Assembly (NCBI RefSeq): GCF_016865425.1
Contig: NZ_AP023355.1
Span: forward strand, 4,834,198 to 4,898,197
DNA from: Actinocatenispora thailandica
GTDB lineage: Bacteria > Actinomycetota > Actinomycetes > Mycobacteriales > Micromonosporaceae
Direction of reading: 5' to 3'
Length of the DNA stretch: 64,000 nt
Both the position numbers and the translations under genes were made by a program. Shown in pieces: positions 46,999 to 64,000 of this stretch (its first letter is position 1; the number at the start of each line of letters is the position of its first letter). The notes under the pieces are model-generated. The model did no database searches. It saw only the letters and a program-made list of their open reading frames with translations, and was not told the origin of the DNA.

Positions 46999-47486
46999 CT
47001 GGCCCTCCCGCGCCACCCGCCGTCGTCCTCACGCTCCGTGTGCGCAAGAAAGCACGCACCGGGTGGGAAACAGCCCATCCGGTCGGCCGCGAGCCTACCG
47101 CCACCCGTCGGATCACCGATCGAGGCCTTACCATCCACGGCAGAGGGCTACATGGGGCCTCGCGAACCTGTCGTCGAACGGTGGGCGCCGCCGACCTTCA
47201 AGGCACGGGGGCAGGCACGGTGTCGGAGGGCGCATCGCCGATGATCCTCCGTCGCGCCTACCCCGGGGCACCAGGTGTTAGCGGTGGGGTGTCCCGGCCG
47301 GCGGATCCGGTAGCGTCCCGGATCCCGGTCACCGGCCCCATACCGCTCGCATGCAGCAAAGGGTCAGTTCAGAATGGCGTCGATGGCCGGGCCCAACAGG
47401 CTCCGGCGCGCATTCCGAACCGACCTCAAAGCCGATGCGGCCAGTCACGGCCGCACATCGCCTGTCACCGGGGAGGCGCTCGTATC
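46999..47486. other. Divergent intergenic region without a convincing gene
   Basis: 488 bp between the zinc-ribbon gene and the TrmB/LuxR regulator. Open frames cross it but lack similarity and plausible ribosome sites. It contains a loose inverted repeat GTGCG-N10-CGCAC near 47,042 and probably both promoters; I could not assign them. Confidence 0.5.
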
Positions 47487-48458
47487 GTGCTGGAGGCCGT
47501 TGGACTCCGACCGTCAGAGTGGCGTGCGTACCACGTCCTGATGCGCCTGCCCACAGGCACCGCCGAGGAACTCGCGGAGCGTCTGGGGCTGGACATCGAC
47601 GAGGTCGCCGCCGCGTTGGCCGTGCTGCAGCGGCGGAAGGCGGTCACCCGGACCCCGGACGACCCGCGCCGGTTTCGGGCCGTACCCCCGGACCTCGCGT
47701 TCGGGCCCGAGCTGCGGCGCCGGCAGCGCGACCTCGCCGTGGTGGAGGAGGCCGTCGACCGGCTATCCACGGAATACCGCAACCAGCTCGCACTGCGCGG
47801 CGCCGGTGAGCTGATCGAGGTGGTCTTCGGCGAGGCGATCGGACCACGCATCGTGGAACTGGAGCGCAAGGCGCAGAAGGAGGTCTGCGGCATCATGAAG
47901 TCGCCGACCTTCGCCATGCGGCCGTCCGAGAACGTCGCCGAGATGGAGGGGCTGCGCGCCGGGATCGCCTACCGGTCGATCTACCCGCGCGAGGTGTTGA
48001 CGATCCCCGGCGACCCGTTCGAGCTGGTCAAGTCCGTGCGTCATGGCGAACAAGCACGCGTCATCGACGAGACACCACTCAAAATGATCATGGTGGACCG
48101 GGCGGTGGCGGTGGTACCGGTCCTACCGGCCGATTCGCCCGAGCCATCGGCACTACTCGTGTACCCGAGCGGCCTGCTCGATGCGCTGGTGGCGCTGTTC
48201 GAGGCGATCTGGGAGAATGCCACGCCGCTGCTCGCCACCGACGACGCGGTAGAGCCCGCCGGCGAGAACGCCCCGTCGGCTCAGGATCTGCACCTGCTGT
48301 CACTGCTGCTTGCCGGTTTGACCGACCAGGCCATCGCCGCGCAGCTCGGGCTCTCGATGCGCACCGTGCAACGCCGCGTGCACGGTCTCATCGAGCTTGC
48401 CGGGGTGCGTACCCGGTTGCAGCTGATCTGGCGGGCCGCCCACCGCAACTGGCTGTAG
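47487..48458 (+). CDS. Regulator with TrmB-like N-terminus and LuxR C-terminus
   Basis: 323-aa transcription factor. Residues 1-60 form a TrmB-like winged helix (EWRAYHVLMRLPTGTAEELA, VAAALAVLQRRKAV), the middle is a TrmB-like sensor region (KEVCGIMKSPTF, GIAYRSIYPREVL), and residues about 262-323 are a LuxR helix-turn-helix (LLSLLLAGLTDQAIAAQLGL, SMRTVQRRVHGLIELAG). This two-DNA-binding-domain form is frequent in actinomycetes. GTG at 47487 follows GGGGAGG. It converges on the S53 protease gene cluster; control of that cluster is possible but not shown. Confidence 0.85.
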   Translation: MLEAVGLRPSEWRAYHVLMRLPTGTAEELAERLGLDIDEVAAALAVLQRRKAVTRTPDDPRRFRAVPPDLAFGPELRRRQRDLAVVEEAVDRLSTEYRNQLALRGAGELIEVVFGEAIGPRIVELERKAQKEVCGIMKSPTFAMRPSENVAEMEGLRAGIAYRSIYPREVLTIPGDPFELVKSVRHGEQARVIDETPLKMIMVDRAVAVVPVLPADSPEPSALLVYPSGLLDALVALFEAIWENATPLLATDDAVEPAGENAPSAQDLHLLSLLLAGLTDQAIAAQLGLSMRTVQRRVHGLIELAGVRTRLQLIWRAAHRNWL

Positions 48459-48546: not shown

Positions 48547-51500
48547 TCACGCCTTCTTCAGCGTGACGTCGAGCCGCACCGTCTTGCCCTGCCTGATCGT
48601 CACCGACTTCACCTGCGGGTGGTACCCGGGCTTGGCGACGATGACGGTCACCGGACTGTTGCGGTAGTCCAGCCACAACGCGAAGTGGCCGTCCCCGTCG
48701 GTGGTGAGCAGGTAACCGGCGGCCCAGCCGTCGATCTCTACCTGGGCGCCGGCCAGCGGCGTTACGGCACCGCTGCCGTCATCGGCCGAGACCGTACCGG
48801 TGATCTTGCCCCAGGTCGACGGTGGCGCCACCTTCATGGTCACCGCGACCGGGGTGACCAGGTACGGCGTGTCGGTGGCGACGCTGAACTCGGCGGCGTA
48901 CTTGCCGGGCTGAGTGACCGCAGGGTCCGACGCGTCGACGGTCACCTTCACCCGCTTGCTCGCCCCCGGGGCGAGCAAGAACTTACCGGCGCTCAACGAC
49001 AGCCAGGAGACGTCCTCGCCACTGCCCTGGTCGTAGCCGGACAGCACCGACGAAGAGCCGGTCGGCGCGGTGTTGGCACCGCCCGGGTTGCCCCCGATCT
49101 GGTAGAAGCCGAGCGCGCTGCCGCCCCGGTAGATCGCGGCGTTGGCGTTCGGCAGCGCCGTCCACGAGTTGGTCTGCGGGTCGTAGGCGAACCCCTGGTT
49201 GGTCAGCGCGGCACTGCCGTTGGTGACGCCGCCGGAGACCAGCAGCAACCCGTTGGCCGCGGTGTAGGCCGAACCCCACAGGTCGGCCGGCAGGTCCGCG
49301 ATCGGTGACCAGCCGTCGGTGGCCGGGTCGTACACGTAGCCGCTGGTGCCGGCGCCGGAGCCGCCGGCGCAGTAGAGCTTCCCGGCGATCGCACCGCAGG
49401 ACTGCCAGGCGGTCGCGACCGGGTAGTCGGCGGCCTGCGACCAGGAGTCGGTGGCCGCGTCGTACACCAGGACCGTTTTGACCCCACAGGTGGAGGTGCA
49501 GCCGCCGACCGAGTACAGCTTGCCGCCCAGCACCGCGCTCCCGGCACCGGCGTACGCCTTCGGGGCGGTCGCACCGGTCGACCAGGTGTTGCTGGCCGGG
49601 TCGTAGATCTCCAGCTTCGTGTCGGTGCTACCGCTGGCGGTCCAGCCGCCCACGGCGTAGAACTTGCCGCCGATGAAACCGTGCGCCGGGGTGCCGTCGC
49701 GGGCGTCTGCGGCGCTTGCGCCCTGGGTCCAGCTGCCTGCCACCGGATCGTAGACGTACAGGTGGTTGGTCTCGCCGGTGCCGGTGAAGCCGAACGCCGA
49801 GTAGACCTTCCCGTGGTACTCGCCGGCGGCGTTGTCCTGGACGGCCAACGGCAGGTTCGCGATCGGGGTCCAGGCGTCACCCGACGCCCCGGTGTCGGGT
49901 GCGGCACCGGTCGCCGTTCCGCGATGCCGCAGCGGCGAGACGTCCGCCTTGACCACCTTCCTGGGTGCGCCGGTCTGCGTCGCCTGGATCTGGAACCCGC
50001 CGGAATGTTCGGCGAGCGACACGCTGGCCGGCTGGCCACCGGTGTTGGTGACGGTCACCGATCCGGTCGCGGTCCCGCCGTCGAGGTCCAGTGCCTTGCG
50101 GATCGACTGCTTGGACAGGCTGATGCGGCCGGCGGTCAGGGTGATGTTGGCGTGCGTGACATCGTCCGGCCGTACCGCCACGGCGGCAGTCGCATCGTGG
50201 TAGCGCGCCTTCGCGGCGGTGAACGGGTGCGAACCGGTCAGGGACGAGAACATCCAGTAGAAGCCGGTACCGGCGGCCGAGTCCGTCGTGGTGGCGGTCT
50301 CGGTCGGTGCGTCGCCGCTGGTCACCGAGGCAGACTCGACACCGGAGCCGGTGTTCGCGTCGAGCACCCGGCCGGCGACCAGCCCGCCCGGTTTCGGGGT
50401 GCAGTCGAGGTTTCCAAGGAATACGTCGTCGACTTCCCAGTAGAAGCCGGCGAGCGCGGTATAGCGGAACCGCACCTGCACCGACGCCTGGTAGGCGGCG
50501 GTGGTCAGCTGGATCTCCTGGTGCCCCTTGGTCGCCGCGGTCCGGTGCCAGACCGTGCTCCAGTTGGCACCGCCGTCGATCGACAGGTCGACATCGGCGA
50601 CCTGGGTGAGCCCACCGGAGAAATTGGTGTCGAACGCCAGCCACGGGTTGGCCTGATCGGACATGTCGACCATGGGAGTCAGCAGGCTCGCGTCCCACTT
50701 CTGGCTGGTGACCGGCCCGGTCGCCTCGAGGATGGCGAAGTTGCCGGACCCGCCGGTGCCGTTGCCGCGGTGCACCGGGTTGTCGAACACCCAGTTTCCC
50801 CGGCCAGTGGCGTCGACGTCGGTCCACCCGTCCGGGATCGTGGTGGCGTCGAACGTCTCGGTCAGGCCGTCCTTGGTCTGGGTGTATCCGGGTGCCGTAC
50901 AGGCCTGCTGGTCCACCAGCAGGGTCAGGTTCTTGTGCACGTCGGTGTCGCGGACGCTGACCGCCGCGTCGGTACCGGTGTAGCCGGGCAACTGCGCGGT
51001 CGCGTGCACGGTGTAGTCCTTGCCCGTCGGCAGGCTCAGCGAGTACTTGCCGGTGTACGGGTTGGTGTAGACCGGGCCGCCGGGCACGCCGTCCACGGTG
51101 ATCTTCGCGTACAGCGGCCAGTCGTGGCCGGAGCCGTCGGTCACCTTGCCGGTGACGGTGTGGGTGGCGATCGGGTCCAGGGTGAAGTCCGCCGTGACGC
51201 TGCCGCCATCGGCGACGGTGACCGACGCCGTGCTGCTCTGGTAGCCGTATGCCGCAGCGGTCGCCCGGTAGTCGCCCGGCGGCACCGACATCGTGTACGA
51301 GCCGTCGGCGGCCGAGGTCGCCGTGTCGGAACCGACCGAGATGGTGGCGCCGGCGATGGCCGCGCCGCTGCCGGAGCTGGTCACCGTGCCGGCGACGGTA
51401 CCGTGTGGCCCCGAACGGAACGCGCCGAGCCCGTTCGGGGTGCCGAGGCCGGTCGGGCCGTCGTAGCCGGTGCCGGCGGTGCACCAGTATGCCGGGGTGC

Positions 51501-52668
51501 AGGAACCGTTCTCCCCGTCGGTGACGTCGTTGAGCGCGCCGACCTTGGCATAGGGGTAGGCGTTCGGGTAGGAGCCCGCCACCGGCGCACCGGCGTCGGC
51601 GTAGACGCCGGCGATGATCGGCGCCGAGGCGCTGGTCCCGCCGTACTGGGCCCACCCGCTGGCCTGGTATGAGTTGTACACGGCGACACCGGTAGTGGGG
51701 TCGGCCACCGCGGACACGTCTGCCACGCTCCGCATATCGCAACCCGAGTCGTGCTGGAACGCCGGTTTCGGCTCGTACAGCGAACAGCCGGATCCAGGGC
51801 CGCCGTAGGAGTTGTGCCAGACGCTCTCCGACCAGCCGCGCGGACTACTGTCCCGGATCAGGGAGGTACCACCGACCGCGGTGACGTATTGGGAGGCGGC
51901 GGGGAACGCCACGCCGTAGGCGTCGTCACCGGTGGAGACGGTGATCGCCACGCCCGGGTGGTTGTAGTACTGCTGCTCATAGGTCAGCTCGTCAGGCGAC
52001 TCGCCGCTGCCCGGGTCGGAGCTGTAGCCGGTGCCGTACGAGTTCGACACGTACTTCGCGCCGAGTTCCACCGCGGTGTTGACCGACGTACCCAGGTCCT
52101 CGAACGACGCGGAATCGGCCTCCACCAACAGAATGTTCGCGTTCGGCGCGGCAGCCGAGACCATGTCCAGATCCAGCGAGATCTCCCCGGCCCAGCCGGC
52201 GTCGGGCGCCGGGTAGGTAGTTCCGCCGGTCTGGTCGACCTTGCTGAAGCAGCCACTCGCACTCGTACACGCCGGCAGCCCGTACTGCTGCCGGTAGACG
52301 GCCAGGTCCGCCTCGGCGTTCGGATCGTCGTAGGCGTCCACGATCGCGACAGTGGTACCCGCGCCGCCGTCGGCCGGCAGGTTGTACGCACTGCGCAGAT
52401 CACTCGGCCCAAACCCGGACGGCGTGGAGTTGGGCTGAACTCCCTTGGCGCCGACCACATCGGTGCGCCGCAACGAGAAGCAGGTGAACTCGCCGGGATC
52501 GGCGGTGCCACAGACCGGCTCCACGTTCAGTTTCGCCGTCGGCGGGTCCGGTGGCGCGGCGAATGCCGGGGCGGCCAGTCCCAGCCCGATCATGCCCACT
52601 GCGGACGCCACGGCGAGACTACGGATACCCGCTCTCGCTCGTCGACCTCCGACTCTGGTGCGTCTCAA
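48547..52668 (-). CDS. Secreted S53 sedolisin-Kelch multidomain protein, copy A
   Basis: 1373-aa exported protein. Signal peptide about residues 1-38. S53 protease domain about 85-420: Glu162 and Asp166 (AGEISLDLDM), Asp248 (VSTGDDAYG) and Ser346 (YGGTSASAP). No full-length kumamolisin-type propeptide: only about 45 residues separate signal and catalytic domain. Then two carboxypeptidase-regulatory-like beta domains (about 424-590), a jelly-roll (about 600-755), another regulatory-like domain, a BACON-like strand domain, a Kelch propeller (about 920-1230) and a C-terminal BACON/regulatory-like pair. TTG start after AGGAGG. An extracellular acid-type endopeptidase that binds surfaces or polymers is likely. 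Confidence 0.88.
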   Translation of the reverse strand: MRRTRVGGRRARAGIRSLAVASAVGMIGLGLAAPAFAAPPDPPTAKLNVEPVCGTADPGEFTCFSLRRTDVVGAKGVQPNSTPSGFGPSDLRSAYNLPADGGAGTTVAIVDAYDDPNAEADLAVYRQQYGLPACTSASGCFSKVDQTGGTTYPAPDAGWAGEISLDLDMVSAAAPNANILLVEADSASFEDLGTSVNTAVELGAKYVSNSYGTGYSSDPGSGESPDELTYEQQYYNHPGVAITVSTGDDAYGVAFPAASQYVTAVGGTSLIRDSSPRGWSESVWHNSYGGPGSGCSLYEPKPAFQHDSGCDMRSVADVSAVADPTTGVAVYNSYQASGWAQYGGTSASAPIIAGVYADAGAPVAGSYPNAYPYAKVGALNDVTDGENGSCTPAYWCTAGTGYDGPTGLGTPNGLGAFRSGPHGTVAGTVTSSGSGAAIAGATISVGSDTATSAADGSYTMSVPPGDYRATAAAYGYQSSTASVTVADGGSVTADFTLDPIATHTVTGKVTDGSGHDWPLYAKITVDGVPGGPVYTNPYTGKYSLSLPTGKDYTVHATAQLPGYTGTDAAVSVRDTDVHKNLTLLVDQQACTAPGYTQTKDGLTETFDATTIPDGWTDVDATGRGNWVFDNPVHRGNGTGGSGNFAILEATGPVTSQKWDASLLTPMVDMSDQANPWLAFDTNFSGGLTQVADVDLSIDGGANWSTVWHRTAATKGHQEIQLTTAAYQASVQVRFRYTALAGFYWEVDDVFLGNLDCTPKPGGLVAGRVLDANTGSGVESASVTSGDAPTETATTTDSAAGTGFYWMFSSLTGSHPFTAAKARYHDATAAVAVRPDDVTHANITLTAGRISLSKQSIRKALDLDGGTATGSVTVTNTGGQPASVSLAEHSGGFQIQATQTGAPRKVVKADVSPLRHRGTATGAAPDTGASGDAWTPIANLPLAVQDNAAGEYHGKVYSAFGFTGTGETNHLYVYDPVAGSWTQGASAADARDGTPAHGFIGGKFYAVGGWTASGSTDTKLEIYDPASNTWSTGATAPKAYAGAGSAVLGGKLYSVGGCTSTCGVKTVLVYDAATDSWSQAADYPVATAWQSCGAIAGKLYCAGGSGAGTSGYVYDPATDGWSPIADLPADLWGSAYTAANGLLLVSGGVTNGSAALTNQGFAYDPQTNSWTALPNANAAIYRGGSALGFYQIGGNPGGANTAPTGSSSVLSGYDQGSGEDVSWLSLSAGKFLLAPGASKRVKVTVDASDPAVTQPGKYAAEFSVATDTPYLVTPVAVTMKVAPPSTWGKITGTVSADDGSGAVTPLAGAQVEIDGWAAGYLLTTDGDGHFALWLDYRNSPVTVIVAKPGYHPQVKSVTIRQGKTVRLDVTLKKA
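51416..52391. repeat. 976-bp identity tract, copy in S53 gene A
   Basis: Matches 55918-56893 base for base at a constant offset of 4502 bp. It encodes residues 94-417 of copy A, that is nearly the whole protease domain. The bases just outside both ends differ at once. Confidence 0.97.
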
Positions 52669-53046
52669 CTCACGACCTCCTGAGGTCTTGCGCTACCGGT
52701 TGCCACCGCGAAGGCGAGCAACGGCGTGGCGACGAACCACGTCGGCGACCAGAATCCCCAGCCGGCATGGTGCGGAACAATGGGCGCGGGCTGGCGGGGT
52801 TTCGCCATGACCATGAACCGCCGTACCGAGTGCTGCCGGCGACGCGAGCCGGCGTTCGGCAGGCCCCGACTGCCGGGATGGGCCCACCGACCCGATCTCG
52901 GTGGCACGGCGGCCACGCCGACGGCCGGCCCGGGCAGGCCCGGACCGGCCGTCGATCTGTTGCATGTGCCGGAATCCAGATCGAGTTCCCGGCGGTCTGT
53001 CGCCTCGGTCGTCTCGAAGCCCGCGGCGCGACCTTCGAGGCACGCC
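52669..53046. other. Intergenic region between S53 genes A and B
   Basis: 378 bp with no supported gene. It must hold the promoter of copy A. An imperfect inverted repeat (GTCTCGAAG ... CTTCGAGGC, 53,010-53,042) near the end of copy B could be its terminator. Confidence 0.4.
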
Positions 53047-56000
53047 CTACAGTCGCAGCAGGGTGACATCGACCGTGACGGTCTTGCCCTCCTTGATCGT
53101 CGCGGTCTTGACCTGGGGGTGGTAGCCGTCCCTGGCGAAGATGACGGTCAGCGGACTGTTCCGGGAGTCCATCCACAGCGCGAAGTGGCCGTTGGAGTCG
53201 GTCTTCACCAGGTAGCCGGCCGACCAGCCGTCGATCTCCACCGAGGCGCCGGACAGTGGGGTCACGGTGCCGTGTCCGTCGTCGGCCGACACCGTACCGG
53301 TGATCTTGCCCCAGGTGCTCGGCGGAGTGGCGTGCATCGTCACACCGATCGGCGCAATGCTGTATGGCGTGTCGGTACCGACGCTGACCGCGGCGGTGTA
53401 GTCGCCGGGCTGGGCCACGGCCGGGTCGGTCGGGTCGACGGTGATCTTCAACTTCCTGCTGGCGCCCGGCGCCAGAGTGAACGTGGTTCGATTGAGCGAC
53501 AGCCAGGTCACGTCGGTGTCGCCGCCCTGGTCGTACCCGGCCAGTACCGATCCGGTCGCCACCGGCGGCGACGAGGAACTGACGCTGCCGCCGATCCGGT
53601 AAAAGCCCAGGGCGCTGCCGGAACGGTACACCGCCTCGTTGGCGTTGGGCAGCGGCGTCCAGGTGTTGTCGTCCGGGTCGTAGGCGAACCCCTGGTTGGA
53701 CACCGCCGAGCTGTTGTCCGCCACGCCACTGGACACCAGCAGCCGCCCGTTGGCCGCCGCGTACGCCGAACCCCACAGGTCCAGTGGCAGGTCCGCAATC
53801 GGCGACCAGGTGTCGGCGTTCGGGTCGTAGACGTACCCGTGTCTGGTCGACGCCGAACCGATTCCGCCGGCGCAGTAGATCTTGCCGGCGATCGCGCCGC
53901 AGGACTCCCAGGAGATGGCTTCCGGGTAGTCGGCGGCCTGCGACCACGTATCGGAGGCCGAGTCGTACACCATCACGGTCCTCTGACCGCATTCGCTGGT
54001 GCAGCCACCGATCGAGTAGAGCTTGCTGCCGAGCACCACGCTTCCGGCACCGGCGAACGCCTTCGGCGCCGTGGCACCGGTCGACCAGGTGTCCGACGAC
54101 GGGTCGTAGATCTCCAGCTTTGTGTCCGGGGTGCCGTTGTCGGCCCAACCACCGACGGCGTAGAACTTGCCGCCGATGAACCCGTGCGCCGGGTCACCGG
54201 ATCGGTTGTCCGACGCGCTGGCACCCTGGGTCCAGGTGCCGCCGGCCGGGTCGTAGATATACATGTTCTTGATGTCGCCCGAGCCGGTGAACCCGTACGC
54301 CGAGTAGAGCTTGCCGCCGTTGACGCTGACGGCGTTGTCCTGCAACGTGGTGGGCGCGTTGGCGATCGGTGTCCACGCGTCCGCGGACGGCGCGTCGTCC
54401 TGCGGAGCGGTGCCGGTCGCGGCACCGTTGTGGCGCAGCGGTGAGACGTCCGTCTTCACCAACTGCTTCGGCGCGCCGCTGGGCGTCGACTGCATCGAGA
54501 AGCCGCCGCTCTGCTCACCCAGGCGCACCGTCGCCGGCCGGCCGCCGGTGTTGGTCACGGTGACCGCGGCCGTGGCGGGAGCGCCGTCGAGGCTCACTGT
54601 CTTGCGGACCGACTGCTTCGACAGCGCGATCTGACCGGCGGTCAACGCGATGTCGGCGGGGTCAGCGCGTCCGGCGCCACCGCGACGGTGGCGGACTCGG
54701 TGTGGTAGCTGGCCTTGGTCCCGGTGAAGGTGTGCGACCCGGTCAGCGACGAGAACATCCAGTAATAGCCGGGTACACCCGCCGCGTCGGCGGTCGTCGC
54801 GGTCTCGGCCGGCTTGTCCTTGCTGACCACCGACACCGAGTCCAGGCCGTCGCCGGTGTTGGCGTCGGTCACCCGGCCGGCGACCAGTCCACCGTGTACC
54901 GGCAGGCAGGAGATGTCGCCGAAGAACACGTCGTCGACCTGCCAGTAGGAGTAGGCCGTATTGCCTGTGTAGCGGAACCGCACCCGCACGTCGGCGTGGT
55001 TCGCCGCGCCGGGCAGATCGACCTCCTGGTGGCCGCCGGCGTAGCCGGTCTTGCGCCAGGCGTTGGTCCAGGTCGAGCCGCCGTCGGTGGACACGTCGAT
55101 GTCGGCGACCTGGGAGGACCCACCGACCCGGTAGGTGTCGAAGGTCACCGTGGGGTGGTCCTTGTTGGACAGATCCACTGACGGGGAGACCATCGATGTG
55201 TCCCGAGCACCGGTACCAGTGGTCCCGTCGGCGATGGCGAAGTTGCCGGTACCGCCGGTGTAGTTGGTCTGGTGGCCGGGGTTGTCGAAGGCCCAGCCGC
55301 CGTTGCCCGTGGCGTCGGTGGTGGTCCACCCGGCCGGCGTGGTGGTGGTGTCGAACGTCTCGCTGACGCCGGTCTTGGTAATGGCGTAGCCGGGAGCGGC
55401 GCACGCCTTCTGGTCCACCACCGGCTTCAGGTTCCGCCGGATGTCCTTGTCGGCGACCTTCACCGTGGAGTCAAGCACCGTGTAGCCCGGCAGTTGCGGG
55501 GTGGCGTGCAGCGTGTAGTCGCTGCCCGTCGGCAGGCTCAGCGAGTACTTGCCGGTGAACGGGTCGGAGTAGACCGGCCCACCGGGCACGCCGTCCACGG
55601 TGATCTTCGCGTACAGCGGCCAGCCGTGGCCGGAACCGTCGGTCACCTTGCCGCTGACCGTGTGGGTGGCGAGCGGAGTGAGCGCGAGGTCGGTCGTGAC
55701 GGTGCCGCCGTCCGCGACGCTGATCGAGACGGTCTTCGGGTCGAAGCCGTACGCCGCGGCGGTCACCTGGTAGTCACCCGGCTGCACCGACATCGTGTAC
55801 GAGCCGTCCGCGCCGACGGTGGCGGTGCTGCCACCGATATTGACCGACGCGCCGGAGATCGCCGCACCGGTGCTGGCGTTGGTGACTGAACCCGACACCG
55901 TCCCGTGTGGCCCGGCCCGGAACGCGCCGAGCCCGTTCGGGGTGCCGAGGCCGGTCGGGCCGTCGTAGCCGGTGCCGGCGGTGCACCAGTATGCCGGGGT

Positions 56001-57176
56001 GCAGGAACCGTTCTCCCCGTCGGTGACGTCGTTGAGCGCGCCGACCTTGGCATAGGGGTAGGCGTTCGGGTAGGAGCCCGCCACCGGCGCACCGGCGTCG
56101 GCGTAGACGCCGGCGATGATCGGCGCCGAGGCGCTGGTCCCGCCGTACTGGGCCCACCCGCTGGCCTGGTATGAGTTGTACACGGCGACACCGGTAGTGG
56201 GGTCGGCCACCGCGGACACGTCTGCCACGCTCCGCATATCGCAACCCGAGTCGTGCTGGAACGCCGGTTTCGGCTCGTACAGCGAACAGCCGGATCCAGG
56301 GCCGCCGTAGGAGTTGTGCCAGACGCTCTCCGACCAGCCGCGCGGACTACTGTCCCGGATCAGGGAGGTACCACCGACCGCGGTGACGTATTGGGAGGCG
56401 GCGGGGAACGCCACGCCGTAGGCGTCGTCACCGGTGGAGACGGTGATCGCCACGCCCGGGTGGTTGTAGTACTGCTGCTCATAGGTCAGCTCGTCAGGCG
56501 ACTCGCCGCTGCCCGGGTCGGAGCTGTAGCCGGTGCCGTACGAGTTCGACACGTACTTCGCGCCGAGTTCCACCGCGGTGTTGACCGACGTACCCAGGTC
56601 CTCGAACGACGCGGAATCGGCCTCCACCAACAGAATGTTCGCGTTCGGCGCGGCAGCCGAGACCATGTCCAGATCCAGCGAGATCTCCCCGGCCCAGCCG
56701 GCGTCGGGCGCCGGGTAGGTAGTTCCGCCGGTCTGGTCGACCTTGCTGAAGCAGCCACTCGCACTCGTACACGCCGGCAGCCCGTACTGCTGCCGGTAGA
56801 CGGCCAGGTCCGCCTCGGCGTTCGGATCGTCGTAGGCGTCCACGATCGCGACAGTGGTACCCGCGCCGCCGTCGGCCGGCAGGTTGTACGCACCGCGCAG
56901 ATCCGCCGGACCGTAGCCTGACGGCGTAGCGTTGGGCTGGATTCCCCTGGCGCCCTTCACATCGGTGCGCCGCATCGCGAAACAGGTGAACTCACCCTTC
57001 TTCGCGGTGCCGCACACCGGTTCCACCTTCGGCGCCGTCGCGCCGGTGTCACCGACGGCGGGTGCGGCGAAGGCAGGAGCCTGCATTCCCAGCCCCGCCA
57101 ACCCGACCGCCGCGACGAGCGCCAGGCCGTACCGACCGGCCTTCGTTCGTCGACGCACCGTTTCCCTGCCGTACAC
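53047..57176 (-). pseudogene. Secreted S53 sedolisin-Kelch multidomain protein, copy B, single-base frameshift
   Basis: Same architecture as copy A, 1376 aa after correction. GTG at 57176 follows GGGAGGATC; signal peptide about residues 1-38. Catalytic residues are Glu164, Asp168, Asp250 and Ser348. Near 54,658-54,661 one C is lost from a run (reading ACCCCGCC), so the frame ends after DALTPPTSR; with one base restored it reads DALTPADIALTAGQIALSKQ and continues to 53047 through the Kelch and C-terminal domains. Whether the break is real or a sequencing slip is open. If real, a protein of 844 aa lacking the propeller would be made. Protease domain DNA is identical to copy A. Confidence 0.85.
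55918..56893. repeat. 976-bp identity tract, copy in S53 gene B
   Basis: Exact partner of 51416-52391. The remaining parts of the two genes are only moderately similar, even in the next few bases, which argues for gene conversion and against recent whole-gene duplication. Confidence 0.97.
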
Positions 57177-57285: not shown

Positions 57286-60200
57286 TCATCCCTTCGCGAG
57301 GGTCACGTCGACCTCGACCGTCTTTCCTTGCTCGATGGTCACCGTCCTGACCTGCGGTCGATAGCCATCCTTGGCATAGATGACAGTCACCGGGCTGCTT
57401 CGATAGTCCAGCCACAGCTGGTAGTGGCCGGCAGAGTCGGTGATCACGACGTAGCTGGCCGCCCAGCTGTCGATCTGCACCACCACCCCGGCGAGCGGCG
57501 TGCCGTCCGGGCCGCTGACCGTACCGCTGAACCTCCCCCACGTCGTCGGGGGCTGTACCTTCATCGCCACCGTGACGGAGGCGTCCTCGTACGGCGTGTC
57601 CGAGACGACCTCGACGGTGCCGCGGTAGGTACCGGGCTGGTTGATCTGGCCGACCGAGGCGTCGAAGGCGAGCCGCACCTTCTTGCTCTGCCCCGGCGCC
57701 AGCGTGACCCTCCCGACGCTCATCGAGAGCCAGGACACGTCGGACGCGTCGGCCTGCCCGTACCCGGGCAGCAGCGCGGCGCTCGACACCGGCGTGGGCC
57801 CGCCGGCGTTTCCACCGATGCGGTAGAGGCCGGCTGCGCTGCCACCCCGATAGGTCGCCTGGTTGGCGTTGGGCAGCGCGCTCCAGGTGTCGTCCTGCGG
57901 GTTGTAGGCGAAGCCCTGGTTGGTCACCGTGCTGGTGCTCGCGCCGCCGGAGACCAGCAGCCGCCCATTGGCCGCCGCGTACGCCGAACCGAACAGCGGG
58001 AGCGGCAGATCCGCGATCCGCGTCCACGAGTCGCTGGTCGGGTCGTACCCGTAGCTGTGGGTGGTCGGGCCCGAGCCGAGGCCGCCCGCGCAGTAGAGCT
58101 TGCCGGCGATCGAGCCGCACGACGCCCAGGAGGTGCCCTCCGGATAGTCCGCGGCCTGCGACCACGAGTTCTTCGCCGGGTCGTACACCATGACGGTGGT
58201 CTGCCCGCAGGTCGCGGAGTTGCAGCCGCCGACCGAGTACAGCTTGCCGTTCAGTACCGCACTGCCGGCGCCGGCAAACGCCTTCGGCGCGGTGGCACCG
58301 GTCGACCAGCTGTCCGTCTTCGGGTCGTAGATCTCCAGCTTCGTATCCGGGGCACCCTTGGCGCCCCACCCACCGACCGCGTAGAACTTGCCGTCGATGA
58401 ACCCGTGTGCCGGCAGGCCCTCCCGCACATCGGCGGCGCTGGCCAGTTTCCGCCAGGAACCCTGGACCGGATCGTAGGCGTACATGCTGTCGAGGTCGGC
58501 GCCGCCGCTGTACCCGAAGGCCGAGTAGACCAGGCCGTCGTATACGCCGACCGCGTTGTCCTGCACGTTGGTCGGTACGTCCGCGATCGGGGTCCAGGCG
58601 TCGCCCGCGGCCGGGGCGGCGGCCGGTGCCCCGGCAGTGAACTTGCCGGTCTTCCCGGTGTGCCGCAACGGCGAAACCGTCGCCTTCACCACCTGCTTCG
58701 GCGCCTCGGTGGTCGCCGCCTGCGGCTGGAAACCACCGGCCTGCTCACCGAGCCGAATCGTCGCCGGCTGGTCGCCGGTGTTGGTCACCGTGACCGCACC
58801 CGAGGCGCTGCCGCCCCACGCGACCGTCTTCTTCACCGACTGCTTGTCGACCGTGATCCGGCCTGCAGTCAGCGTCAGGTCGGCCCGGGTGACATCGTTC
58901 GGCGTCACCGACACCGTGTCGGTCGCGGCGTGGTAGTTGACGCGGCTCGCGCTGATCGAGTGCGATCCTGTCTGCGGGTAGTACATCCAGTAGAAGCCGG
59001 CGCCCAACCCGGGCGCATCGACGGTGCTGGCGGTCTGCGACGGCTGGTCGTCGTCCACGACCGAGGCTGAGTCGACGCCGTCGCCGGTGTTCGCGTCGAG
59101 CACCTGTCCGGCGACCAGCCCGCCGTGCTGCGGGTCGCAGTAGGCGCGGCCGAGGAAGACGTCGTCGACCTCCCACCACCAGCCGTAACTGCCCCGGAAC
59201 CGGAACCGGACCTGCACGTCGGACTGGTTCGCCGCGGTCGGCAGCAGCGCCTGCTGTCGACCGGAGACCGTACCGGTCTTCTTCTGCCAGGCAGTGGTCC
59301 AGGTCGAGCCGCCGTCGATCGACACGTCGACGGTCGCGGCCTGGGTGAAGTAGGGGCGGTAGTAGGTGTCGAACGTGATCACCGGTGAGTCGTTGCCGGA
59401 CATGTCCAGCACCGGGGAGACCAGCGCGGTGTCCTGCGTCTTCGACGAGCCGGCGTAGGCGCTGTCGATGACGGCGAACCCGCCTGAGCCGCCGGTGGTG
59501 TTGGTGCGCTTGCCCGGGTCGTCGAATCGCCAGGCGCCGCCGCCGGTGGCGTCGGTGACCGTCCACCCGTCTGGCGCGGTCGTCGCGTCGAACGTCTGGG
59601 TACTGCCGTCGTACTTCTTGGCGTATCCCGGCGCCGCGCACTGGCTCACGTCGGGCTGCACGGACAGGTCGCGGTGCACGTCGGCGTCGCCGAGCCGCAC
59701 CGCACTGGTCACCGCACGATAGCCGGTCTGCTGCGCGGCGACGTGCAGCGTGTAGTCGTGCCCGGTCGGCAGGCGGATGGAGTACTTCCCCGTGTACGGG
59801 TCGGTGTAGACCGGGCCGCCCGGCACCCCGTCGACGGTGATCTTCGCGTACAGCGGCCAGTCGTTGCCGCCGCCGTCGGTGACGGTGCCGCTGACGGTGT
59901 GCGCCGCGAGTGGCGCCAGCGCGAAGTCCGCGGTGACCGTTCCGGTGGCGGTGACGGTCACCGCAGTCGTCTTGCTCTGGTAGCCGTACGCGGCGGCCAC
60001 CGCGTCATAGCTGCCCGGTGGTACGGCCAGCGAGTAGCTGCCGTCGGCGCCACTGGTGGCCTGGTCGTCACCGACCTTGATGGTCGCGCCGGCGACGGCT
60101 GCACCGCTCTTGGCGCTGGTCACGGTGCCGGACACTGTGCCCTGCGCGCCGGACCGGAACGCGGCAAGCCCGTTCGGCGTGCCGAGCCCGGTCGGGCCGT

Positions 60201-61407
60201 CGTAGCCGGCCCCCGCCTGGCACAGGTAGTTGCTGCACGCGCCGTTGGTGCCCGTGGTCACGTCGTTCAGCGCACGGGCCTTGGCGTACGGATACGAGTT
60301 CGGGTACGAGCCCGCGACCGGGCTGCCGGCGTCGGCGTACACGCCGGCGATGATCGGCGCCGAGGCGCTCGTCCCGCCGTACTGGGCCCAACCGGCCGCC
60401 TGGTAGGAGTTGTAGACCGCCACCCCGGTCGCCGGGTCGGCCACCGCTGCCACGTCCGCAACCGTGCGCTGGTCGCACGCGGTGTCGGACTGGAAGCTCG
60501 GCTTCGGCTCGTACTGCGAGCACCCCGATCCCGCGCCGCCGTAGCTGTTGTGCCAGACACTCTCCGACCAGCCCCGGCTGCTGCTGTCTCGGGTCAGCGA
60601 CGTGCCGCCGACCGAGGTCACGTACTGCGATGCGGCCGGGAACGAGACACCGTACGAGGAGTCACCGGACGACGCGGTGATCGCGACCCCCGGATGGTTG
60701 TAATATTGCTGCTCGTAGGTCAGCTCGTCCTGCGACTCCCCGCTTCCCGGCGTGGCGTCGTAGCCAGTGCCGTAGGAGTTCGACACGTACTTGACGCCGG
60801 CCGCCACCGCGGTGTTGACGGCGGCCCCGAGGTCCTCGAACGACGCGGAGTCGGCCTCCACCAGCAGGATGTGCGCGTTCGGCGCGACGGCTGAGACCAT
60901 GTCCAGGTCCAGCGAGATCTCCCCGGCCCAGCCCGAGTCAGCCTGCGGGAGGCTCGTCCCACCTCGCTGGTCGATCTTCGAGAAGCAACCGTCGGCCGTC
61001 GTGCACGCCGGCAGCCCGTACTGCTGCCGGTAGACCGCGAGGTCGGCCTCCGCGTTCGGATCGTCGTAGGCGTCCACGATCGCGACCGTCGCTCCCGCAC
61101 CGCCGTCCGCCGGCAGCTGGTAGGCGCTGCGTAGATCGCCAGGCCCGTACCCCGACGGCGTCGCGTTCGGCTGGATGCCTTTCGCGCCGGCCACATCGGT
61201 GCGCCGCAACGAGAAGCAGGTGTACTCCCCCACCTTGGCCGGGGCGCACACCCGTTCTGTGTTCGGCTGGCTGGCGGACAGGTCGTCGGCGGGCGCCGCG
61301 AAGGACGGCGCCTGCGCCATCCCGAGTCCCGCCCCCACCGCCACCGCGAGGGCGAGCCCGTACCTGCCTGTTCTCGCCCATCGACGCAACGTTCTGGTGC
61401 CCTGCAT
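57286..61407 (-). CDS. Secreted S53 sedolisin-Kelch multidomain protein, copy C
   Basis: 1373-aa exported paralogue of A and B, intact. Signal peptide about residues 1-39. Glu163, Asp167 (AGEISLDLDM), Asp249 (ASSGDSSYG) and Ser347 (YGGTSASAP) are the protease residues. A disulfide-capable Cys pair (ACTTADGCF) is conserved in all copies. Domain order is the same, with a Kelch propeller at about 940-1230 and the C-terminal GTPLAGVVVQIDSWAASYVV domain. Its protease DNA differs from the A/B tract at many sites, so it was not part of the conversion. ATG at 61407 follows GGAGGACC. Confidence 0.9.
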   Translation of the reverse strand: MQGTRTLRRWARTGRYGLALAVAVGAGLGMAQAPSFAAPADDLSASQPNTERVCAPAKVGEYTCFSLRRTDVAGAKGIQPNATPSGYGPGDLRSAYQLPADGGAGATVAIVDAYDDPNAEADLAVYRQQYGLPACTTADGCFSKIDQRGGTSLPQADSGWAGEISLDLDMVSAVAPNAHILLVEADSASFEDLGAAVNTAVAAGVKYVSNSYGTGYDATPGSGESQDELTYEQQYYNHPGVAITASSGDSSYGVSFPAASQYVTSVGGTSLTRDSSSRGWSESVWHNSYGGAGSGCSQYEPKPSFQSDTACDQRTVADVAAVADPATGVAVYNSYQAAGWAQYGGTSASAPIIAGVYADAGSPVAGSYPNSYPYAKARALNDVTTGTNGACSNYLCQAGAGYDGPTGLGTPNGLAAFRSGAQGTVSGTVTSAKSGAAVAGATIKVGDDQATSGADGSYSLAVPPGSYDAVAAAYGYQSKTTAVTVTATGTVTADFALAPLAAHTVSGTVTDGGGNDWPLYAKITVDGVPGGPVYTDPYTGKYSIRLPTGHDYTLHVAAQQTGYRAVTSAVRLGDADVHRDLSVQPDVSQCAAPGYAKKYDGSTQTFDATTAPDGWTVTDATGGGAWRFDDPGKRTNTTGGSGGFAVIDSAYAGSSKTQDTALVSPVLDMSGNDSPVITFDTYYRPYFTQAATVDVSIDGGSTWTTAWQKKTGTVSGRQQALLPTAANQSDVQVRFRFRGSYGWWWEVDDVFLGRAYCDPQHGGLVAGQVLDANTGDGVDSASVVDDDQPSQTASTVDAPGLGAGFYWMYYPQTGSHSISASRVNYHAATDTVSVTPNDVTRADLTLTAGRITVDKQSVKKTVAWGGSASGAVTVTNTGDQPATIRLGEQAGGFQPQAATTEAPKQVVKATVSPLRHTGKTGKFTAGAPAAAPAAGDAWTPIADVPTNVQDNAVGVYDGLVYSAFGYSGGADLDSMYAYDPVQGSWRKLASAADVREGLPAHGFIDGKFYAVGGWGAKGAPDTKLEIYDPKTDSWSTGATAPKAFAGAGSAVLNGKLYSVGGCNSATCGQTTVMVYDPAKNSWSQAADYPEGTSWASCGSIAGKLYCAGGLGSGPTTHSYGYDPTSDSWTRIADLPLPLFGSAYAAANGRLLVSGGASTSTVTNQGFAYNPQDDTWSALPNANQATYRGGSAAGLYRIGGNAGGPTPVSSAALLPGYGQADASDVSWLSMSVGRVTLAPGQSKKVRLAFDASVGQINQPGTYRGTVEVVSDTPYEDASVTVAMKVQPPTTWGRFSGTVSGPDGTPLAGVVVQIDSWAASYVVITDSAGHYQLWLDYRSSPVTVIYAKDGYRPQVRTVTIEQGKTVEVDVTLAKG

Positions 61408-61867
61408 CCAGGTCCTCCAACCGTCCACCCAGTGGTGCCGAGCGCCGCCACGACGCCGAACGACAACACTTCCCAACGGGCCGGTGACCAGGCAATGTAG
61501 AGCGAATGGCGGGTACGCGACATGACGACAGCTCGTCACGCCGAACGCGACGGAACATGTGCAAATCGATCACACCCAGCGAGTGCCGCCGCTCCGGCGA
61601 CAGGCGGCCGCTCAGGCCCGCTCGACCCTGGTGGAGTAGGCCGGTTGGCGCTGGGTCGAACATGCCGGCCGGGCACGGGTGGTACAGCACTGGCCATGCT
61701 GGACAGGGTTGACCAACACCGGGTAAAGCGGGCAGGGCCGCGATGGGGGTGGCACGACGGCGGCGAGACCCGCCGCCGCAATGCGACCGGCGTCAGATCC
61801 AGTGCGGCAGAGGCGGGCAGGTCAACGAGGCACCGGGCGCGCCGGACCTGGGCCGGACGGGCTCGAG
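61408..61867. other. Intergenic region upstream of S53 gene C, downstream of purC
   Basis: 460 bp without a supported gene. It must carry the promoter of gene C (minus strand). A TGTG-N9-CACA near 61,558-61,574 is off spacing for Crp. No RNA gene seen. Confidence 0.4.
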
Positions 61868-62707
61868 TCAGGCGGTCCAGGTGTTGCCGGTGATGCGCTC
61901 GTACGCCTCCTGGTAGCGGGCCCGGGTCGTCGCCACGACCTCGGCGGGTACCTCCGGGCCCGGGTAGGTCTTGTCCCAGCCCGGCACCGCGGCGGCCCAG
62001 TCGCGGATGAACTGCTTGTCCATCGCCCGCTGCGGGCGGCCCGGCTGCCACTCCTCGACGGCCCAGAACCGGGACGAGTCGGAGGTCAGCACCTCGTCGG
62101 CGAGCACCAGCTGTCCCTCGGCGTCGATGCCGAACTCCAGCTTGGTGTCGGCGATGATGATGCCGCGCTCGCGCGCCAGTTCGGCACCGCGCCGGTACAC
62201 CTCCAGCGTCAGGTCACGGATGCGGCCGGTCAGCTCGGCACCGAACTCCTCGGTCACGTCGTCGAGGGTGATGAACTCGTCGTGCCCCTCGGTCGCCTTG
62301 GTGGTCGGCGTGAAGATCGGCTCCGGCAGCTTCGACCCCTCGACCAGCCCGGCCGGCAACTCGACACCCGACACCGCGCCCTGCTTCTCGTATTCCTGGA
62401 GACCGAGCCCGGCCAGGTAGCCGCGGGCGATGCACTCCACCGGCAGCATCTTCAGCGGCCTGCAGCGCACCGCGCGGCCCGCCCACTCCGCCGGCACGTC
62501 GGTACCGGAGATCACGTGGTTGGGCACCAGGTCGGCGAGCTGGTCGAACCACCACAGCGACAGCTGGGTCAGCAGCTTGCCCTTGTCCGGGATCGGCGTG
62601 GGCAGCACCACGTCGTAGACCGAGATCTTGTCCGAGGCGACCAGGATGATGTCGCCGTTGTCGTCCTCGTACAGGTCACGGATCTTGCCGCTGTACACGT
62701 GCTTCAC
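61868..62707 (-). CDS. purC: SAICAR synthetase
   Basis: 279-aa cytosolic enzyme joining CAIR and aspartate with ATP in purine synthesis. N-terminal YSGKIRDLYEDDNGDIILVA with the SDKISVYDVVLP loop is the ATP-binding part; MLPVECIARGYLAG, ELPEPIFTPTTKA-type (KLPEPIFTPTTKATEGHDEF) and IIADTKLEFGID with LADEVLTSDSSRFW are family signatures. The length suits the longer actinobacterial/yeast-like form. A housekeeping gene set inside an array of secreted-protease paralogues, so the fourth copy was separated from the other three by it. Confidence 0.96.
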   Translation of the reverse strand: MKHVYSGKIRDLYEDDNGDIILVASDKISVYDVVLPTPIPDKGKLLTQLSLWWFDQLADLVPNHVISGTDVPAEWAGRAVRCRPLKMLPVECIARGYLAGLGLQEYEKQGAVSGVELPAGLVEGSKLPEPIFTPTTKATEGHDEFITLDDVTEEFGAELTGRIRDLTLEVYRRGAELARERGIIIADTKLEFGIDAEGQLVLADEVLTSDSSRFWAVEEWQPGRPQRAMDKQFIRDWAAAVPGWDKTYPGPEVPAEVVATTRARYQEAYERITGNTWTA

Positions 62708-62911: not shown

Positions 62912-64000
62912 TCATGCCTTCTTCAGCGTGATCGAGACCGTTACCGTCTTCCCCTCCTTGATCGTCACGCTCTTCACCTGCGGCTGGTAGCCGTCCTTGG
63001 CGTAGATGACGGTCAGCGGGTTGTTCCGGTAGTCCAGCCACAGCGCGTAGTGACCGTCCTTGTCGGTCTTCAGCGTGTAGCTGGCGGTCCAGCTGTCGAT
63101 CTGGACGGTGACGCCGGCGAGCGGGGTGACGTTGCCCTTCCCGTCGTCGCCGGACACGGTGCCGGTGATCTTGCCCCAGGTGGACGGCGGCTGCACGTGC
63201 ATCGTGACCTTCACCGGCGCCACCCCGTACGGGGTGTCCGTGCTCAGGCCGATGCCCGCGGTGTAGTCGCCGGGCTGGGTGATCTCCGGGACCGAGGCGT
63301 CCAGGCTCACCTTGATGCGCTTGCTCTCGCCCGGTGCCAGGGTGAACTGCGTGCGGTTCAGGGACATCCAGGTGACGTCCGAGTTCCCACCCTGGTCGTA
63401 GCCGCCGAGCACCTCGGAGGTGGCCACCGGCGGCACGAACGCACCGCCGGGGTTACCGCCGATCGCGTAGAACCCGATGCTGCTGCCCGACCGGTACAGC
63501 GAGGTGTTCGCGTTGGGCAGCGGGCTCCACGAGTCGTCCTGCGGGTTGTAGGCGTAGCCCTGGTTGGTGATGGCGGCACCGTTGCCGGTGACACCACCCG
63601 AGACCAGCAGCAGCCCGTTGGCCGCCGTCGAGGCCGACCCCCACAGGTCGATGGGCAGGTCCGCGACCTGGGTCCAGGTGTCCGCACCCGGGTCGTAGGC
63701 GTAGGTGTGCTTGCTCGACGAGGACGCCGAACCGCCGGCGCAGTAGATCTTGCCGGACAGCGCGCCACACGACAGCCACGAGGTGGCCTCCGGGTAGTCC
63801 GCCGCCTGCGCCCACGAGTCGCTCGCCGGGTCGTACACCGTCACGGCCTTCTGGCCGCAGGTGCTGGTGCAGCCACCGATCGAGTACAGCTTGCCGTCCA
63901 GCACCGCGCTACCCGCACCGGCGTAGATCGACGGTGCCGACGTGCCGGTGGACCAGCTGTTGCTCGCCGGGTCGTAGATCTCCAGCTTGGTGTCCGGGTT
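62912..64000 (-). CDS. Secreted S53 sedolisin-Kelch multidomain protein, copy D, C-terminal part
   Basis: 362 codons up to the right edge, frame open across it. Begins (at the edge) in a Kelch blade (NPDTKLEIYDPASNSWSTGT) and proceeds through the propeller, WMSLNRTQFTLAPGESKRIK (BACON-like) and the terminal carboxypeptidase-regulatory-like domain ending SVTIKEGKTVTVSITLKKA. It matches the last quarter of copies A-C. The protease domain lies outside the window, so it is inferred by analogy only. Confidence 0.88.
   Translation of the reverse strand, partial: NPDTKLEIYDPASNSWSTGTSAPSIYAGAGSAVLDGKLYSIGGCTSTCGQKAVTVYDPASDSWAQAADYPEATSWLSCGALSGKIYCAGGSASSSSKHTYAYDPGADTWTQVADLPIDLWGSASTAANGLLLVSGGVTGNGAAITNQGYAYNPQDDSWSPLPNANTSLYRSGSSIGFYAIGGNPGGAFVPPVATSEVLGGYDQGGNSDVTWMSLNRTQFTLAPGESKRIKVSLDASVPEITQPGDYTAGIGLSTDTPYGVAPVKVTMHVQPPSTWGKITGTVSGDDGKGNVTPLAGVTVQIDSWTASYTLKTDKDGHYALWLDYRNNPLTVIYAKDGYQPQVKSVTIKEGKTVTVSITLKKA

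Follow-up and report, generated by a model that had tools for sequence, protein, structure and literature searches.

The 64,000-nt window of the Actinocatenispora thailandica genome analysed here carries an array of genes predicted to encode secreted kumamolisin-like (S53) proteases. Three of them, designated A, B and C, lie in tandem on the minus strand, and a fourth paralogue, D, runs off the end of the window. Downstream of the S53 domain, Pfam searches identified CarboxypepD_reg domains, choice-of-anchor J, Kelch repeats and a C-terminal CarboxypepD_reg domain. The choice-of-anchor J match was above the cut-off in B and slightly below it in C, and a C-terminal PEGA match was found in A and C. 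Genes A and B share an identical tract of 976 bp within the protease region, the two copies of which are 4.5 kb apart; the origin of this tract is the subject of the present analysis. The coordinates of all features are given in Table 1.

The two copies of the tract matched at 976/976 bases with an offset of 4502, and the exact match could not be extended at either end. At the lower end, mismatches between A and B were found at 51415, 51414 and 51412; at the upper end a mismatch at 52392 was followed by nine matches, after which mismatches were dense. Sliding comparison at the same offset gave an identity of 65% just below the tract (100-base step 51301-51400) and 75% just above it (52401-52500). 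Farther away the identity at this offset dropped to chance, as insertions and deletions break the register. The initial annotation had described complete identity at a constant offset with divergence right outside, and this was confirmed: the match is maximal and the flanking segments are 65.9-74.8% identical.

To compare A, B, C and D by segment, a codon alignment was used in which 4-fold degenerate sites were counted as silent sites. Between A and B, identity over the tract was 100% (972 nt); the segment preceding it gave 65.9% (276 nt), the one following it 72.5% (1221 nt) and the Kelch part 74.8% (1578 nt). Of the 326 codons touched by the tract, 324 are whole, and all 4-fold sites within it were alike (199/199), while outside it the agreement was 59.5% of 42, 64.0% of 161 and 58.2% of 220 sites. 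Agreement of 58-64% is read as saturation; apart from the tract, A and B are paralogues of old standing. The remaining five pairs (A-C, A-D, B-C, B-D and C-D) were 79-81% identical at the nucleotide level in the tract columns (A-C 80.2%), with 54-59% of 4-fold sites identical, approximately the saturation of the remaining gene parts. The tract columns are the best-conserved segment of the unconverted pairs (A-C 80% against 66-72% elsewhere; overall 79-81% against 66-74%). From the 79-81% of the other array pairs, ∼195 differences would be expected across the tract if A and B were unconverted (by arithmetic).

Selection at the protein level could in principle have held both catalytic domains identical without recombination, and three catalytic motifs do fall inside the tract. 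The identity extends to every 4-fold site, whereas C and D, which have the same domain, are saturated; on the evidence of these synonymous sites an explanation by selection alone was rejected, its probability being negligible. The tandem direct arrangement would also favour a recent unequal crossing-over or whole-gene duplication that made B from A, the rest of the gene then diverging fast. In that case identity should run to one gene end or over the whole 4.5-kb unit, but 4-fold sites are saturated on both sides of the tract, and this origin was likewise rejected as very improbable.

Clustering of the agreeing sites was assessed by a GENECONV-like permutation on polymorphic sites and by a second, shuffle test of the longest exact run. 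A and B agreed without a break at 312 polymorphic sites, a run reached in 0/500 shuffles, and at 101 silent polymorphic sites in a row, reached in 0/2000. The longest exact run within the domain was 976 bp, compared with a 95% point of 323 in shuffled data, and again 0/2000 shuffles reached it. Among the other array pairs the longest run of agreeing sites was only 11 sites and the lowest shuffle count 32/500; for exact runs in the catalytic domain, no pair of A, B, C and D besides A/B was significant (smallest 345/2000), and in the Kelch part no array pair was significant in either test. In the segment after the tract, A and B have a common run of 42 bp (3/2000) and A and C one of 31 bp (58/2000). 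Both are near alignment column 1950, and they were provisionally taken to mark a conserved patch.

As would be expected of interlocus gene conversion, the excess identity is sharp-ended, includes synonymous sites and is clustered beyond chance. These data make it highly probable that the tract shared by A and B is the product of one recent gene-conversion event between tandem paralogues. Conversion between paralogues with diverged signal peptides and accessory and Kelch parts had been put forward in the initial annotation, with sliding identity and a GENECONV-type test named as the means of checking it; the permutation and the 4-fold sites bear it out, with 100% identity in the tract, a sharp drop at its ends and counts of 0/500 and 0/2000.

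Table 1. Positions of the protease array, the shared tract and adjoining genes in the 64,000-nt window
Feature	Position	Strand	Description	Basis
Regulator	47040..48458	+	TrmB part and weak LuxR-like part (below cut-off); other end of array	Pfam; similar ORF neighbours the copy in congeners (by eye)
Gene A	48547..52668	-	1373 amino acids; secreted kumamolisin-like S53 protease, CarboxypepD_reg + Kelch + PEGA	Open reading frame (ORF), Pfam, Peptidase_S8 match of catalytic part; kumamolisin match via paralogue B
Converted tract (probable) in gene A	51416..52391	-	976 bp; touches A residues 93-418	Maximal exact match to 55918-56893
Gene B, second open piece, other frame	53047..54636	-	Kelch repeats, C-terminal CarboxypepD_reg; choice-of-anchor D match below cut-off	ORF, Pfam
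Gene B, first open piece	54642..57176	-	844 amino acids; signal peptide (by eye), S53, CarboxypepD_reg, choice-of-anchor J	ORF, Pfam, phmmer
Converted tract (probable) in gene B	55918..56893	-	976 bp; touches B residues 95-420	Identical to 51416-52391; 199/199 4-fold sites alike
Gene C	57286..61539	-	Third full-length paralogue, unconverted; 80.2% nucleotide identity to A in tract columns	ORF, Pfam
purC (SAICAR synthetase)	61868..62707	-	Between C and fourth paralogue D	Pfam PF01259
Gene D, 3′ part	62912..64000	-	Fourth paralogue, present at full length in L013:610-4749; corresponds to the one copy that each of three congeners has	Repeat copies, alignments, Pfam

Several observations weigh against this interpretation. 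The evidence is an assembled sequence, in which a tract filled in from the other copy would look identical. Gene B is frameshifted, possibly through an error in the sequence. Only one strain of the species was represented, which gave no view of A or B as they were before conversion. Finally, the tree topology is unchanged between the tract and the rest of the genes, and only the branch lengths differ. Maximum-likelihood protein trees of the tract, the post-tract part and the Kelch part all paired A with B, with support of 98 and 92 in the two flanking trees. A different tree of A, B and C for the tract, which the initial annotation had predicted, was therefore not obtained, A and B being sisters outside it as well; the contrast is one of branch length. 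A conflict of topology should arise only where conversion joins genes that are not sisters, and it was not treated as a strict requirement for conversion. With regard to polarity, from A to B or from B to A, the tract was separated by nearly the same distance from C, from D and from the copies of the congeners, and none of the genomes compared, the copies of G296 and G308 apart, was recognised as having A and B as distinct unconverted genes.

An assembly artefact, in which gap filling or patching put one copy of the domain in both genes, would account for the identity without any recombination. Such an error would be plausible in paralogues that lie in tandem at a distance of 4.5 kb, the frameshift in B hints at one in this stretch, and the tract is known from the assembly. 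However, the genome was assembled as a single contig of 7,426,695 bases (7.43 Mb), the window contains no N, and unconverted copies should differ by ∼20% (as judged from A-C), which was judged too large a difference to be overlooked by an assembler or polisher over 1 kb. An artefact was considered unlikely; it is the chief rival to the event being real.

The reading frame of gene B shifts between ∼54640 and 54690, past the S53 domain and ahead of the Kelch part. The second open piece retains 67.7% amino acid identity to A, with silent sites saturated; as the Kelch part of B is still conserved, the frame break is either recent or a sequence error. As sequenced, the product of B would stop after 844 residues with its catalytic domain intact. 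For gene C, comparison with A and B indicates that the start is likely to be near 61407.

The relationship of the tract to the S53 domain was examined using the first open piece of B. In phmmer this piece aligned with kumamolisin 1t1e over residues 45-420 (E = 1.4e-19) and with kumamolisin-As 1sio over residues 83-420 (E = 1.3e-18); the catalytic part also gave a weak Peptidase_S8 match, consistent with S53. The motifs GEISLDLD, TGDDAYG and GGTSASAP start at A residues 161, 246 and 343, all within the tract, and we take these to be the S53 Glu/Asp, oxyanion-Asp and Ser positions known from work on kumamolisin. Enzymes of the kumamolisin type usually possess a Pro-kuma_activ propeptide. No Pfam match to Pro-kuma_activ was found in A, B, C or D at E 1e-3; only ∼80 residues precede the catalytic domain, and the full-length kumamolisin match reaches back to B residue 45. 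B resembles the kumamolisin/sedolisin peptidases (MEROPS S53) in keeping the Glu-x3-Asp, Asp and GTSxSxP positions; a difference from kumamolisin is the long C-terminal chassis of CarboxypepD_reg and Kelch parts.

The S53 domain spans ∼338 residues (B 83-420). The initial annotation had stated that the tract covers exactly the protease domain; the two are nearly coincident, but the tract (95-420) begins ∼12 residues inside the match and ends at the domain edge. The next domain begins at about residue 423 (by the confident part of an otherwise poor model; 424-497 in Pfam). An AlphaFold2 prediction from a three-row alignment had a mean predicted local distance difference test (pLDDT) score of 37 and was confident only at ∼422-502, corresponding to the first CarboxypepD_reg domain after the tract, the only part for which it was used. 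The chance that a random 976-bp tract in a 4122-bp gene would start 36 bases or fewer from the domain start is 73/3147, or ∼2%, by arithmetic done post hoc. Since the domain is the best-conserved stretch of the unconverted copies, recombination is expected there, and the coincidence of tract and domain was not read as design. The available homology can account for the limits of the tract.

Whether conversion is a habit of the family was addressed in a survey of 45 catalytic domains from six genomes (G000 12, G001 8, G002 7, G003 11, G023 5 and G008 2). For the first four genomes these are a subset of the 17, 15, 11 and 22 matches listed. Adjacent pairs were defined as array neighbours or genes within one locus of ≤16 kb, and these made up 9 of the 181 within-genome pairs. 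Under recurrent conversion limited to the domain, which is the wider reading of the initial annotation, catalytic domains would be traded time and again between adjacent S53 genes and so stay similar as the other parts drift apart. In accord with this, the three longest exact runs among all 181 pairs (976, 80 and 74 bp; next 51) are all from adjacent pairs, namely A/B, the divergently oriented neighbours d and e of G023 and a tandem pair on C33 of G002; in the latter two it is again the catalytic domain that holds the longest run, and for the remaining nine G023 pairs, which are 74-80% identical, runs of only 20-35 were seen. Nevertheless, six of the nine adjacent pairs, B/C among them, were without significance, and the shuffle test is too lenient, as p ≤ 0.005 was also reached in 8/170 non-adjacent pairs. 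Two non-adjacent G023 pairs reached 3 and 8 of 500 in the permutation, the silent-site test of G023 d/e was not significant (660/2000), and a 55-bp run shared by two non-adjacent G003 genes falls outside the catalytic domain (1/2000). Moreover, the best-conserved domain would draw recombination without any function being involved. Recurrent conversion of this kind is considered improbable, and the survey gives a weak hint of recurrence in the family.

Within the array there is no support for the catalytic domain being kept alike. The pairs A-C, A-D and C-D are saturated in the tract columns, and each of three congeners has a single copy with 66-68% identity to A, which is not the pattern of recurrent concerted evolution. 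As a continuing force, the homogenisation described in the initial annotation finds no support, given the 54-59% 4-fold identity of the other pairs and their lack of any significant run in the catalytic domain.

Two loci of the survey are described separately. In L098 (G023 C38), d and e are adjacent divergent S53-Kelch genes that have, besides the 80-bp run, ∼230 bp of raised identity close to where the catalytic domain begins; this is possibly an older conversion tract, to which the silent-site test gave no support. In L101 (G002 C33), two tandem S53 genes have Ig-like (He_PIG) tails and catalytic domains 79% identical, and the 74-bp run in these domains is possibly a short conversion tract.

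Three other genomes of the genus were found to have one gene each, aligned to A over its whole length. By eye, in ORF lists, this single copy lies in the same neighbourhood, with sugar-transporter genes on one side and a TrmB-type regulator on the other; purC lies between the gene and the regulator in G001 and G003 and was not seen there in G002. The Pfam names of these neighbours are taken from the copies in the window. D was nearest to the copies of the congeners (D-O1 96.5% identical in the tract columns, a 3.5% difference) and is therefore taken as the shared copy. A, B and C sit between purC and the TrmB-type regulator. By ORF ends the same gap is 12 bases in G003 and 24 bases in G001, and A, B and C were absent from the purC-regulator interval in the three congener genomes. 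Judged by 4-fold sites, A, B and C split from D long before D split from the G001 and G003 copies; their absence in the congeners could reflect loss there or gain by transfer in the present species. With 0/976 differences between A and B, the 95% upper bound on their divergence is 3/976, or 0.3% (by arithmetic). Compared with the 3.5% of D-O1 in the same columns, this bound places the conversion well after that species split.

The accessory modules of A, B, C and D have 55-68% amino acid identity while their 4-fold sites are saturated, which suggests that purifying selection also acts on them and that they are not specially free to diverge, as had been proposed for the surface modules. Nor was there direct evidence for the cassette-like diversification envisaged in the initial annotation, as A and B became more similar through the event. 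What comes closest to it is much older, namely that in related genera the same C-terminal chassis stands behind an S8 subtilase domain. A search with protein A of 121 family genomes, in which at most five candidates were scored per genome, listed 104 matches. Of the 88 that lie outside the genus, 70 (counted by eye) start at A residue 286-327 and run through the C-terminal part. Eleven of these loci (L084-L094) were selected by a filter that required an ORF of >1200 codons with a GTSM motif; HGTH was found in 11/11 and D[ST]G[IV] in 10/11. Pfam was run on one of them, L091:190-4716 from a related genus, and showed a subtilase (Peptidase_S8, E = 1.3e-43) that has its CarboxypepD_reg, Kelch and PEGA parts in common with the S53 proteases; across 1068 aligned positions its identity to A is 42%. 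It follows that either an S53 or an S8 catalytic domain was joined to this chassis at some point. A separate scan of genome contigs was uninformative, as its 23 loci were distant and owed their match largely to the Kelch part. The use of one chassis with S53 or S8 is domain shuffling of a familiar kind and gives no reason to count the recent tract as part of it. That the catalytic domain acts as a recombination cassette over short as well as long spans of time, with neighbouring S53 genes of the family converting repeatedly while an exchangeable chassis diverges, appears improbable.

Among bacterial paralogues gene conversion is a familiar process; in tufA and tufB, for instance, it covers the full gene and recurs across species (PMC6053082). 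A and B are similarly paralogues of one genome that were made alike, synonymous sites included, but here the tract is 1 kb, apparently from one event, in a family that is otherwise saturated. Conversion of the GAF-A domain between the phosphodiesterase genes TbrPDEB1 and TbrPDEB2 of Trypanosoma brucei (PMC2689650) likewise replaced roughly a single domain, involved two genes that are close and similar, and was confined to one lineage; it differs in that the organism is a eukaryote, the domain is GAF instead of catalytic, and donor and recipient are known. The GRINS of assembly-line polyketide synthases, ∼1 kb in length with GC and TA skews above 25%, have been suggested to act through gene conversion (PMC10394414). 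The tract in A and B shares with them its length, very high identity and location inside multidomain genes; unlike GRINS, it is found between two genes and not within one synthase, and its GC skew of -0.022 and TA skew of -0.037 (-2% and -4%, against the required >25%) led to GRINS being rejected. A fungal genome paper mentions sedolisin together with gene conversion (PMC3158057). Among the listed open-licence papers on gene conversion, S53/sedolisin proteases and GRINS, no report of the present tract was found. The process itself is known; the tract is ordinary in kind and an unusually clean example.

In the course of events that we propose, the four secreted kumamolisin-like protease genes would have arisen through old duplications, D being the copy common to the congeners. 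A recent homologous recombination of the gene-conversion type between the neighbours A and B in this lineage would then have copied ∼1 kb from one to the other. The copied segment may have fallen on the S53 catalytic domain because this was probably the most similar stretch of A and B, stopping near the domain edges. We infer that the agent was RecA-type recombination, that there was a single event and that its ends were determined by homology and not by selection. As predicted from the sequence, the outcome would be that A and B carry the same active-site domain on differing signal peptides and accessory parts.

The functional consequence would be modest, namely two secreted-protease genes with one shared active-site domain. 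Trees built from S53 catalytic domains can mislead, as the domain alone makes A and B look like a very recent duplication. The locus is also a good test case of recombination reaching between ∼80%-identical neighbours in a high-GC bacterium, in paralogues that are otherwise saturated at silent sites.

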